Of a stretch of DNA of 45,414 bases, positions 20,501-45,414 are shown piece by piece. The translations under genes were made by a program, and so were the position numbers. Source of the stretch: Rubrobacter sp. (GTDB taxonomy: Bacteria > Actinomycetota > Rubrobacteria > Rubrobacterales > Rubrobacteraceae); NCBI GenBank assembly GCA_013695335.1, contig JACDAR010000159.1, positions 1 to 45,414 on the forward strand, written 5' to 3'. Positions within the stretch are counted from its first letter, which is position 1. Each line of letters opens with the position of its first letter. Below the pieces are notes generated by a model. That model was not told the DNA's origin and searched no databases. It saw nothing but the letters and a program-made list of their open reading frames with translations.

Positions 20501-20573
20501 TCCCCTGTAGCTCAATTGGCAGAGCATCTGACTGTTAATCAGAGGGTTGCTGGTTCGAGTCCAGCCGGGGGAG
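20501..20573 (+). tRNA. tRNA-Asn(GTT)
   Basis: Cloverleaf by eye: acceptor TCCCCTG/CGGGGGA, anticodon arm TCTGA-CTGTTAA-TCAGA, T-arm GGTTCGAGTCC; no encoded CCA. Confidence 0.95.
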
Positions 20574-20605: not shown

Positions 20606-20679
20606 GGGCCCATAGCTCAGTTGGTTAGAGCATCCGACTCATAATCGGACGGTCCCAGGTTCGAGTCCTGGTGGGCCCA
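20606..20679 (+). tRNA. tRNA with CAT anticodon (elongator Met or Ile2)
   Basis: Acceptor GGGCCCA/TGGGCCC, anticodon arm TCCGA-CTCATAA-TCGGA, T-arm GGTTCGAGTCC; no encoded CCA. Confidence 0.93.
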
Positions 20680-41489: not shown

Positions 41490-41789
41490 TCAGCGCATCA
41501 CGCGAACGAAATAGAACGTGAGCGTCGCAGTTCCGGCTCCGGCTAGCAGGAGGGTGGAGAGGCCGCCAACCGAGACGACAACCCCGGCGATGGGGGCTCC
41601 CGCGCCGGCTGCCACGCCCATCGCCACCTCGCCGAGGCCCTCCGTGCGGGGGTGCAGATCCTGCGTGACAGAAGCGGCGAGCAGCGCGCCCGCCGTCCCA
41701 CCAGCGGCGAGGCCGATACTGCCGATCGCTGTCGCGACCGCCAGTACGGCGAGCGTCCGGCGTCTGATCTCAGCTTCGTCTTGCTTCAT
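41490..41789 (-). CDS. Small hydrophobic membrane protein (~99 aa)
   Basis: MKQDEAEIRRRTLAVLAVATAIGSIGLAAGG...: 2-3 predicted TM segments; overlaps the end of the NAT gene by 20 nt. Confidence 0.6.
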   Translation of the reverse strand: MKQDEAEIRRRTLAVLAVATAIGSIGLAAGGTAGALLAASVTQDLHPRTEGLGEVAMGVAAGAGAPIAGVVVSVGGLSTLLLAGAGTATLTFYFVRVMR

Positions 41790-42684
41790 CAGCGATGCTC
41801 GTTCTCTCTGCGGTGAGAATTTCTCGCAACTTTGTCTCATCTTCCGGTGCGAGCGTGATGTTGAAAGTTTCGCGGAGCGCCTGTATCGCTTCGTTCTCGG
41901 ATAAGCCTCGCTTATGCGACGTTCCATCTGGATATTTGGAGATGAAGGTGTTTCCGCCCAGCGTGTACCTGACGTTCGGCTTGACCATTACGGCTCTCGG
42001 CTGGGTTACGAACGGCGAGTCTGGATGGGTCGCCGTGTAATGGTTGTAGACCACGTAATCTATGAAACGCTGCGGTTCTTGTGTGAAGGAATAGAGGTCC
42101 ATCCAGCCTTCAGCCTCGGGAGAGCGCAGCCGCCACGAACCGTCATCCTGTTGCGCGAGGCCGTAGGTCCAGCCGCCCTGGCGCGAGACCGCGCCGTCCT
42201 CGAACGGGATCGGCTCCAGAAGCGTCGCCCCGAAACCGACATCCGCAAGCCACTCCGTTTCCCCAGCCTCGACGATCAGCAACATGTGGGTGCGGGCAGC
42301 CTGTACCCGGCCTGCCAGCCGCCTCACCTTGAACCCGAGACACTCCAGCAAGGCCGAAAACAGTAGGTTGTGCTCGAAGCAGTACCCGCCTCGCCCCTGG
42401 TGAACCAGCTTATCCTGCACATCATCCAGCCACAGGGAGATGCCGTGTTTCAGCACCACGTTCAGGTTCTCGAACGGGATGCTGTCTGCGTGGGCGCGGT
42501 GTAGTCTATGCAGCGTCTCCGCATCGGTGCGGAGGTCTCCGCTGTACCCCACGCGGGCAAGGTAAGAGTCTACGTCTAGCTTTCCAACGTCCCACTCGTT
42601 GCTTGATCCGCTGTTTTCGGAATGGATACGCCGATCTGAAGTGTTCACTTGAGAATCCTCCGGGTCGTCTCGAATGGTCTTCAT
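41770..42684 (-). CDS. Arylamine N-acetyltransferase
   Basis: HADSIPFENLNVVL, catalytic Cys in QGRGGYCFEHN, His in ARTHMLLIV, Asp in LADVGFGATLLEPI. Confidence 0.94.
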   Translation of the reverse strand: MKTIRDDPEDSQVNTSDRRIHSENSGSSNEWDVGKLDVDSYLARVGYSGDLRTDAETLHRLHRAHADSIPFENLNVVLKHGISLWLDDVQDKLVHQGRGGYCFEHNLLFSALLECLGFKVRRLAGRVQAARTHMLLIVEAGETEWLADVGFGATLLEPIPFEDGAVSRQGGWTYGLAQQDDGSWRLRSPEAEGWMDLYSFTQEPQRFIDYVVYNHYTATHPDSPFVTQPRAVMVKPNVRYTLGGNTFISKYPDGTSHKRGLSENEAIQALRETFNITLAPEDETKLREILTAERTSIADEARRS

Positions 42685-44066
42685 TTCCGCGCCAACCTGT
42701 CTGGTGCCTCGGTGGCGTCGCGGATGTTCGGGGTGAGGTTGTGAGGGTCTTGATCCGTATCGTCTATCCCAAAACCGACGATCCGCTCCGGGTAAACCCG
42801 GATGATCGTCATGTCAGGCTTATCTATTGCTTCAGCGTGGCCGCGGATTTCGAGGCATCTGACACGCCACGGATGGCGCGATGTGATGTCGTCCACGACG
42901 AACGCGGCCCGCCCGTTGGCCGCCACGTTGCGGAACTTGCGGCTCGATGCCATGTTGAAGCCCCGGATATCTATCGCCGCGACATCGGGGTTGTAATGAA
43001 AACCGACCGGGCTGACCTGAAGCGGGCCGTTCGGCTGGACAGTCGCGAGCCTTCCCAGAGTCTGTGACTCCAGGTAGTCGAGTTCTGCCCGCGTGAAAGG
43101 TGTTGGACGCTGCGTGACGAGGAGCGTCTTGCCTACGGTGTCGCGGGACTCTATGGCGGCGTGAGCTTCGGCAGCCTGCTCAAGTGGGAAGATCTGGCCG
43201 ACCACCGGTCGCAAATGGCTCTCCGCCGCATCCGAGAGCGCGGCCTCGGTGTGGGCACGCGCCTCCTCTGGTGTCGGCCGCCACAGGCCGATCTTCTTCA
43301 CGCCGCGTTCTTCAGCATCCTCATCCGAGATGCCTGCCCATTCGCCGCTCGCCATCCCGAAGCTGACCATACGGCCGCCGCGTTCGAGCAGCCCGAACGC
43401 TGACCTTCCGATCTCACCCCCAACCCCGTCAAAGACTACGTCAATGCCCGCGAAGGCTTCACTAATCTGATCCTCCCACCCGGATTGCAGGTAATCCACT
43501 GCAACATCCGCGCCCAACTCGCGCGCTCTGGCTACCTTCCGTTCGCCACCGGCGACGGCGGCAACCCTTGCCCCGGCGGATTTTGCGAGCTGGACGAGCA
43601 GGGAACCGAGTCCACCGGCGGCTGCTTCGACCAGTACGCGATCTCCTTCGCACAAAGATGCAACCTGCATCAGAGCCTTCGCCGTGCGCCCATCCGCGAG
43701 CAACGCAGTCGCGACATCGAGTCCCAGGTTCTCTGGAACCGGAACCAGGCTATCTGCATCCAGGGCGGCGAGGCTCGCGTACCCGCCAGACCCGCCCGTG
43801 ATGGCGATCACCCGTTTACCTATCAAAGATTCGTCAATATCCGGCCCGACTGAAACTACGGTGCCGCCGACGCCGTTGCCAGGGATCATGGGCAGCTTCG
43901 CCTCGAAAGGACCGAAACCATTCGCCCGAAACTGGGTGTCGATAAAGGTGATGTTGGCGTAGGCTACTTCGATCATCGCCTGCCCCGGTCCCGCCACGGG
44001 ATCCGGAGCGTCTCCAGCCACGAGTGCCTCGGGGCTGCCGAATTCCTCTAGCCATACGGCTTTCAT
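42681..44066 (-). CDS. Fusion: quinone oxidoreductase-like MDR protein + PPOX-class F420-dependent split-barrel domain
   Basis: N-term MKAVWLEEFGSPEAL...GDRVLVEAAAGGLGSLLVQLAKSAGARVAAVAGG..VVFDGVGG; C-term FTRAELDYLESQTLGRLATVQPNGPLQVSPVGFHYNPDVAAIDIRG..SRKFRNVAANGRAAFVVDD; one uninterrupted ORF. Confidence 0.88.
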   Translation of the reverse strand: MKAVWLEEFGSPEALVAGDAPDPVAGPGQAMIEVAYANITFIDTQFRANGFGPFEAKLPMIPGNGVGGTVVSVGPDIDESLIGKRVIAITGGSGGYASLAALDADSLVPVPENLGLDVATALLADGRTAKALMQVASLCEGDRVLVEAAAGGLGSLLVQLAKSAGARVAAVAGGERKVARARELGADVAVDYLQSGWEDQISEAFAGIDVVFDGVGGEIGRSAFGLLERGGRMVSFGMASGEWAGISDEDAEERGVKKIGLWRPTPEEARAHTEAALSDAAESHLRPVVGQIFPLEQAAEAHAAIESRDTVGKTLLVTQRPTPFTRAELDYLESQTLGRLATVQPNGPLQVSPVGFHYNPDVAAIDIRGFNMASSRKFRNVAANGRAAFVVDDITSRHPWRVRCLEIRGHAEAIDKPDMTIIRVYPERIVGFGIDDTDQDPHNLTPNIRDATEAPDRLARK

Positions 44067-45373
44067 CTGGGATCACTTCCTTCTGGGTCGATGGTTCTCG
44101 TTTGTTTCGGGCTTTTCTCCTGGTCGAGGGGGTTGGAGATCTCATCCCGGTCGAGCCTGGGGATCAGGATCGCTGCCGCAGCCAGAAAACCGGGTACGAT
44201 CCCGGCTACTAGAAAGATGGGCGTCAAGCCGAACGCCGCACCAGCCGGACCAGCTATCGCCATCGAGACTGGCATCAAAGCCAGCGAGACGAAGAAATCC
44301 AGGCTCGAAACACGACCGCGCAGCCGGTCTGGAACCCGGCGTTGCAGGAGGGTTCCCCATATCACCGTCGCCGCCGAGAAGGTCGCGCCGACGACGAACA
44401 TGGCGGCGCAGATCACCCACAGCGAGCCCGCGAAACCAACGACAGCGAACGGCAGCGCCCCCAGTCCCCACAGAAAAATCATCGCGGTCAGATACCTGCG
44501 GGGCAGACGCCGGGCCGAGATTCCGAGTGCCCCAGCCGCTCCGCCAACCCCGAAGGCAGCGAGCGCGAGGCCATAATCCTCTGCGCCACCGCCGAGGTTG
44601 TCCCTGATTGCAAACGGCAGCAACACCTCCATAGGGCCGATGATGAGCAACACGATCAGGAGCGCAAACAGAAGCGTCGCCCACAACCAACTCGTTCTCC
44701 GCACGTAGCCGAAACCTTCGCGTAGGTCAGCGAAGACCGCCGCCGCGCCTGTTTCATCCGAGGCGATCCGAGGTTTCTGTTTTCGGACGTTCATCGCCAC
44801 GAGGCAGGAGGCGGAGATCAGGTACGTCACGCTTCCCGCGAGTATGGCGAGGCCGGGTGAGAGCGACGCGACCACGACGCCCCCGAGCACGGGTCCGGCT
44901 GCCTGCTGGGCGAGCGGGCGGAGCGTCCCTTCCAGGCCGTTAGCCGCAAGTAGTTCGTCCTCTGGGAGAAGGTGGGGCAGGAGCGCAGTATATGAGGGAA
45001 TAAAGAACGCCTCGCCGGCCCCTATCACCAACCCGCCAATCGCCAGGTGCCAGATCTCCAGCGCGCCCGTGAGCGAGAGTACGCCGAGGACTAGCAGGAC
45101 TGTCGCACGCGTGAGATCGGAGGCGAGCATGACGAGGCGTTGGGGCAGCCGGTCGGCGGCGACCCCGCCGAACAGCACGAAGGCGACGAGGCCGACGCCG
45201 AACAACGCGGTAACGAGCGAGAGTTCCGCTGGCCCGCCGCCAAGAGATATTACCTGCCACGCCAGGGCGACCAGCCACAGCCCGCTACCGGCAAGAGAAA
45301 TCGCGAGTCCAGTCCACAGCAGGCGGAAGTCGCGGTGCCGCAGCGGCATCAAGGGCCGCAGCGCTGCGCTCAT
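44063..45373 (-). CDS. MFS transporter (EntS/MFS_3-like exporter)
   Basis: LRHRDFRLLWTGLAISLAGSGLWLVALAWQV..GGVAADRLPQRLVML...; ~12 hydrophobic segments; start taken at ATG 45373 (TTG 45400 possible). Confidence 0.88.
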   Translation of the reverse strand: MSAALRPLMPLRHRDFRLLWTGLAISLAGSGLWLVALAWQVISLGGGPAELSLVTALFGVGLVAFVLFGGVAADRLPQRLVMLASDLTRATVLLVLGVLSLTGALEIWHLAIGGLVIGAGEAFFIPSYTALLPHLLPEDELLAANGLEGTLRPLAQQAAGPVLGGVVVASLSPGLAILAGSVTYLISASCLVAMNVRKQKPRIASDETGAAAVFADLREGFGYVRRTSWLWATLLFALLIVLLIIGPMEVLLPFAIRDNLGGGAEDYGLALAAFGVGGAAGALGISARRLPRRYLTAMIFLWGLGALPFAVVGFAGSLWVICAAMFVVGATFSAATVIWGTLLQRRVPDRLRGRVSSLDFFVSLALMPVSMAIAGPAGAAFGLTPIFLVAGIVPGFLAAAAILIPRLDRDEISNPLDQEKSPKQTRTIDPEGSDPR

Positions 45374-45414
45374 CCGTCGCGGTGTCCGGCGGGAAGTCAA
45401 CCGGAATATCCCGT

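Follow-up and report, generated by a model that had tools for sequence, protein, structure and literature searches.

A fused MDR–PPOX gene in a compact operon

The window, a 45,414-nucleotide stretch of Rubrobacter sp. DNA (assembly GCA_013695335.1, contig JACDAR010000159.1), carries on its minus strand a gene whose single reading frame joins a zinc-free MDR domain to a PPOX split-barrel domain. The gene overlaps an efflux gene at its start and an acetyltransferase gene at its stop. The features, in the order in which they are read, are:

44063..45400, minus strand: Tet(V)-like MFS efflux transporter (441.8 bits, short of the 640 cut-off), overlapping the fusion start by ATGA
42681..44066, minus strand: fused MDR–PPOX gene, with ATG at 44066 and TGA at 42683-42681 (461 residues, coding 44066..42684)
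43116..44066, minus strand: MDR domain, residues 1-317, zinc-free and quinone-oxidoreductase-like (Pfam, NCBIfam and structural matches)
43098..43115, minus strand: junction, residues 318-323, placed by comparison with stand-alone relatives
42765..43097, minus strand: PPOX/FDOR split barrel, residues 324-434, from the TIGR04023 match
42684..42764, minus strand: C-terminal tail HNLTPNIRDATEAPDRLAR, residues 435-461, also found in stand-alone PPOX relatives
41770..42684, minus strand: arylamine N-acetyltransferase (Acetyltransf_2, 220 bits), its start overlapping the fusion stop by ATGA

An earlier note had claimed an uninterrupted 461-residue frame here with the strand unstated. The frame is confirmed on the minus strand, and inspection of the plus strand of 42681-44066 finds several stops. 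A stop between the domains was looked for, and none occurs in either the window species or its congener G001, where the ortholog is intact. A Pfam profile search places ADH_N at residues 26-112, ADH_zinc_N at 152-269 and PNPOx_N at 329-418, each above its gathering score; the first two matches (46 bits against 23.5, and 79 bits against 31.8) put the N-terminal half in the MDR superfamily. The AlphaFold2 model of the full-length protein has a mean pLDDT of 92.7 and a pTM of 0.80.

Identity of the two halves

The best NCBIfam model for the MDR half is TIGR02824 (PIG3 quinone reductase), which scores 168 bits against a cut-off of 296.8, and PRK10754 scores 112 against 348. Because the TIGR02824 cut-off is not reached, we call this half QOR-like and do not assign it to PIG3. 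A Foldseek search with the predicted full-length structure returned the QOR structures 4rvs, 4dup, 8j6e and 1qor as top matches. The glycine-rich nucleotide motif AAAGGLGS and the residues K177 and Y192 align with NADPH-bound Rv1454c; the equivalent Lys and Tyr hold the 2′-phosphate of NADPH in E. coli QOR. Zinc ligands, whether catalytic or structural, are absent, the single cysteine in residues 1-317 being C139, which is Arg in G001. The zinc-free MDR identity proposed earlier is thus borne out by Pfam, NCBIfam, Foldseek and the Rv1454c alignment, and the half is probably NADPH-dependent, judging from these aligned residues. The protein shares its fold, nucleotide motif, absence of zinc ligands and K177/Y192 with the zinc-free NAD(P)H:quinone oxidoreductases (the QOR/zeta-crystallin/PIG3 branch of the MDR superfamily), but differs from that group in falling below both the TIGR02824 and PRK10754 cut-offs and in bearing a C-terminal PPOX domain.

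The C-terminal half matches NCBIfam TIGR04023 (PPOX_MSMEG_5819) at 142.3 bits against a cut-off of 85.6, with residues 324-434 covering all 115 model positions, and so resembles the MSMEG_5819-type PPOX class F420-dependent oxidoreductases of the FDOR superfamily along the whole model. Unlike the fusion, the other TIGR04023 members looked at are stand-alone genes. In an alignment of 50 rows, R21, D74, G91 and P108 are invariant in the family and kept in the PPOX half, as are the nearly invariant K59, R61, W82 and R85. The MSMEG_5819-type assignment therefore stands on the above-cut-off match, the family residues and the tree described below, and the C-terminal domain retains the residues conserved across its family.

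Modelled alone, the PPOX half is predicted with a pLDDT of 92.7 and a pTM of 0.87, and its model superposes on F420-bound Rv2074 (5jab) with a VIA-align Z of 13.2 and an rmsd of 2.2 over 110 aligned residues. Many other split barrels match too. Specifically, the F420 binders 5jab, 4qvb and 4zky, the FAD-containing 6eci (MSMEG_5243), FMN-binding PNPOx and the heme-binding 5bnc (MSMEG_6519) all give similar scores, so the fold does not decide the cofactor. At the level of individual residues, R376, K377 and N380 (domain positions 58, 59 and 62) align with Arg55, Lys57 and Asn60 of Rv1155, which lie in its F420 pocket (PMC12942459), and prolines stand at the positions aligned with Rv1155 His27 and Arg30. 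From sequence we infer that the PPOX half uses F420H2. Mycobacterial FDOR-B enzymes are promiscuous F420H2-dependent reductases (PMC8498797, PMC5449967).

End-to-end joining of two ancestral genes

The stretch TQRPTPFTRAELDYLE had been read as a linker between the domains, and this reading does not survive comparison with unfused relatives. The stand-alone PPOX of genome G019 starts MVKPSSPFTKGELDYLDSQ, the same as the supposed linker (its N-terminus is MVKPSSPFTKGELDYL, and the fused protein at the join reads ..VGKTLLVTQRPTPFTRAELDYL), and the stand-alone MDR of genome G077 ends in ATVGKTLLEVR and its stop at the same point as the fused MDR half. The two genes therefore meet directly, end to end, with no linker between them, and TQRPTPFTRAELDYLE can be ruled out as a hinge, being the PPOX domain's own N-terminus. 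Since stand-alone PPOX relatives also possess the tail HNLTPNIRDATEAPDRLAR, it belongs to the PPOX domain and not to the fusion. No in-frame ATG, GTG or TTG is present between codons 288 and 372 of the window-species fusion.

The nearest relatives of both halves are stand-alone proteins: for the MDR half, those of G077 (68% identity) and then Actinomadura (60%); for the PPOX half, those of G019 (70%) and Actinoplanes (67%). In the PPOX tree, the fused domain groups with the stand-alone PPOX proteins of G019, Actinoplanes and two members of a mycobacterial-looking genus. The MDR halves of the window and G001 fusions group together (99/93), as do their PPOX halves (97/90). This pairing in both trees fits a fusion that arose once, no later than the last ancestor that the two species share.

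Conservation and distribution of the fusion

The G001 fusion (G001:C388:16716-18116, 467 residues) is 76% identical to that of the window over its full length and is free of internal stops. Both genes lie in the same chromosomal surroundings, adjoined by proC-, divIVA- and rluD-like genes (ORFs read by eye), and are therefore taken as orthologs. A Nei–Gojobori comparison of the two fusions gave a dS of 1.01 and a dN/dS of 0.145, with values of 0.147, 0.139 and 0.147 across both halves and the junction, indicating purifying selection throughout. A full-length ortholog of this identity in an independent assembly rules out an assembly chimera, a chance frame or a missed stop.

Within the order, the fusion occurs in 2 of 39 genomes, those of the window and G001 (the class sample comprises the same 39 genomes); no fused gene was seen in the 75% complete genome of a third congener, G002. 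No further fused form was found among 396 genomes sampled across the phylum, and none of 72,556 plasmid records covers 80% of the fused protein. Long frames were surveyed from stop to stop around 72 TIGR04023 matches in the phylum sample, together with a sample of PNPOx_N matches in 60 genomes from an additional, mycobacterial-looking genus. The 15 long frames translated, from G309, G282, G191, G186, G031 and ten mycobacterial-type loci, proved to be stand-alone PPOX genes in spurious GC-rich frames, which rules out a widespread fused family within the range searched. A truncated fusion in G019 was also rejected, the PPOX gene there being stand-alone with its own ATG.

Genomic context

The operon layout recurs in G001, where the fusion likewise begins within an ATGA shared with an upstream MFS gene and is directly followed by an arylamine N-acetyltransferase gene. 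The two acetyltransferases are 72% identical. The upstream pumps are unrelated, Tet(V)-like in the window and FexA-like DHA2 in G001, with a best BLASTP E of 0.13 that is not convincing. Just upstream of the G001 pump lie genes for an NADPH-dependent FMN reductase and an ABM-family protein. Pumps related to that of G001 are found again close to PPOX genes in G034, G007, G018 and G020. Elsewhere in the family, a stand-alone TIGR04023 gene of G020 is surrounded by genes for MarR, FMN reductase, an MFS pump and a luciferase-like oxidoreductase, and a PPOX gene of G002 comes after one for an arylamine N-acetyltransferase. These efflux, reductase and acetyltransferase neighbours are the main ground for proposing a role in detoxification.

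MDR and TIGR04023 genes are not systematic neighbours outside the fusion. An MDR gene lies near PPOX in 4 of the 69 PPOX loci fetched, one of the four being the G001 fusion itself, and the stand-alone MDR relatives from G077 (68%) and Actinomadura (60%) do not adjoin PPOX genes.

Elsewhere in the window genome (G000:C82, L113:4706-9772), a second TIGR04023 PPOX gene is followed 83 bases on by a separate MDR gene, whose product is 32% identical to the fused MDR half. Ahead of this PPOX gene stands a PF17648 'Luciferase domain' gene, and a Tn3-family transposase gene lies just downstream. At G002:C324 (L121:722-4964), three consecutive genes on one strand encode a transposase of the Tn3 family, a TIGR04023 PPOX protein and an arylamine N-acetyltransferase; Tn3 transposases adjoining PPOX genes in two congeners could be a sign of mobility. 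In several genomes of the family, a small PF17648 gene lies immediately before a TIGR04023 PPOX gene or overlaps it, and the pair is confirmed by Pfam at L156:547-1442, L158:5001-5695 and L113:8776-9772. In the window itself, a 145-residue ORF at 41490-41927 (minus strand) matches the first ~40 and last ~65 residues of a 422-residue MFS protein encoded at the corresponding place in G001 (L114:10991-12259) and looks like an MFS remnant with its middle deleted; two tandem tRNA genes lie at 20501-20573 and 20606-20679 (plus strand).

F420 biosynthesis genes in the host

Genes for F420 biosynthesis, which the earlier note had named among the points to check, are present in part. A 3.4-kb contig of the window genome (C340) carries cofE and cofC (TIGR03552, 150 bits against a cut-off of 105; cut by the contig start). 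An FbiA-type cofD and fbiC were not found in the draft, which is 91% complete in 373 contigs; fbiA, cofE and fbiC are all present in G001. For the cofD search, PF01933 matches were sorted by score into what we read as YvcK-like and FbiA-like groups. An assembly gap is the simplest explanation for the missing fbiA and fbiC, and real gene loss is possible.

Proposed function and alternatives

We propose that the fusion encodes a genus-restricted detoxifying reductase that is bifunctional, with NADPH and F420H2 used at separate, independent sites, a reading to which we give about an even chance. The N-terminal half would reduce quinones or activated alkenes with NADPH at the zinc-free MDR site, and the FDOR-B-like split barrel would use F420H2 to reduce electrophiles of the same general kind (quinones, enones and possibly nitro-aromatics), each site acting independently while the single chain fixes their stoichiometry. 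The fusion would thereby serve as the reductase of an efflux–reductase–acetyltransferase operon directed at redox-active aromatic compounds: amino-aromatics arising from reduction could be acetylated by the adjoining N-acetyltransferase, and parent compounds pumped out. The earlier note had offered either hydride transfer between the cofactors or sequential reductions on one substrate. Reductions on one substrate class fit the operon, with its efflux pump and arylamine N-acetyltransferase, better than inter-cofactor hydride transfer, which is without support of its own since MDR and TIGR04023 genes are not systematic neighbours outside the fusion.

F420H2-dependent enzymes require an F420 reductase, and an attached cofactor-regenerating partner would explain the choice of exactly these two domains. 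The MDR half could then act as an NADPH:F420 transhydrogenase, with the PPOX half spending the reduced F420 on substrate in a self-sufficient protein, and residues of the cofactor regions are kept in both halves. To our knowledge, however, no MDR enzyme reduces F420. Moreover, the stand-alone MDR relatives of G077 and Actinomadura are not beside PPOX genes, and the one unfused PPOX–MDR pair of the window genome, on C82, has an MDR only 32% identical to the fused half. The known NADPH:F420 oxidoreductase, Fno, which would perform the suggested transfer, is a different enzyme with a Rossmann-type fold (PMC8498797), and is not among the NCBIfam or Foldseek matches listed for the fused protein. 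We therefore regard this alternative as unlikely; that the protein represents an MDR-family transhydrogenase fused to its own F420H2 consumer, in which NADPH would power F420-dependent reactions with neither Fgd nor Fno, appears quite unlikely.

Alternatively, a deletion may have removed the MDR stop and the PPOX start, leaving two domains that work as before and a joining that is functionless. We take this rival seriously: nothing was gained at the join, which consists of the ends of both ancestral genes with no linker, and the separate genes are not usual neighbours; in addition, the fusion is found in two species of one genus only. Nevertheless, no new stop has arisen in the fused form over a divergence of roughly one synonymous substitution per site, and the window species offers no in-frame start codon close to where the PPOX half begins. 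We judge neutral read-through improbable. Very unlikely, finally, is a C-terminal half that binds FMN, FAD or heme, or has a non-redox role such as cofactor storage or regulation: the split-barrel fold is common to all these binders at similar scores, and neither FbiA nor FbiC turned up in the draft genome, but the annotation of TIGR04023 is that of an F420-dependent class, and the genus has the F420 pathway.

Relation to known systems and implications

Both halves are of known kinds, and their combination is new within the open-access literature searched, where we found no description of the fusion. A possible published parallel concerns MSMEG_6848, an FDOR-B1 protein that carries a second label in a published table, where it is given as 'LPOR-like/FDOR-B1' (PMC8498797); it may be another oxidoreductase–FDOR combination.

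Should the two sites cooperate, the protein would connect the NADPH and F420 pools within one chain, with a bearing on bacterial F420 recycling, and would be useful as a self-sufficient biocatalyst. Even without such cooperation, the locus ties an MSMEG_5819-type PPOX, from a group for which few physiological substrates are known, to an operon for efflux and arylamine acetylation, and thereby suggests candidate substrate classes.
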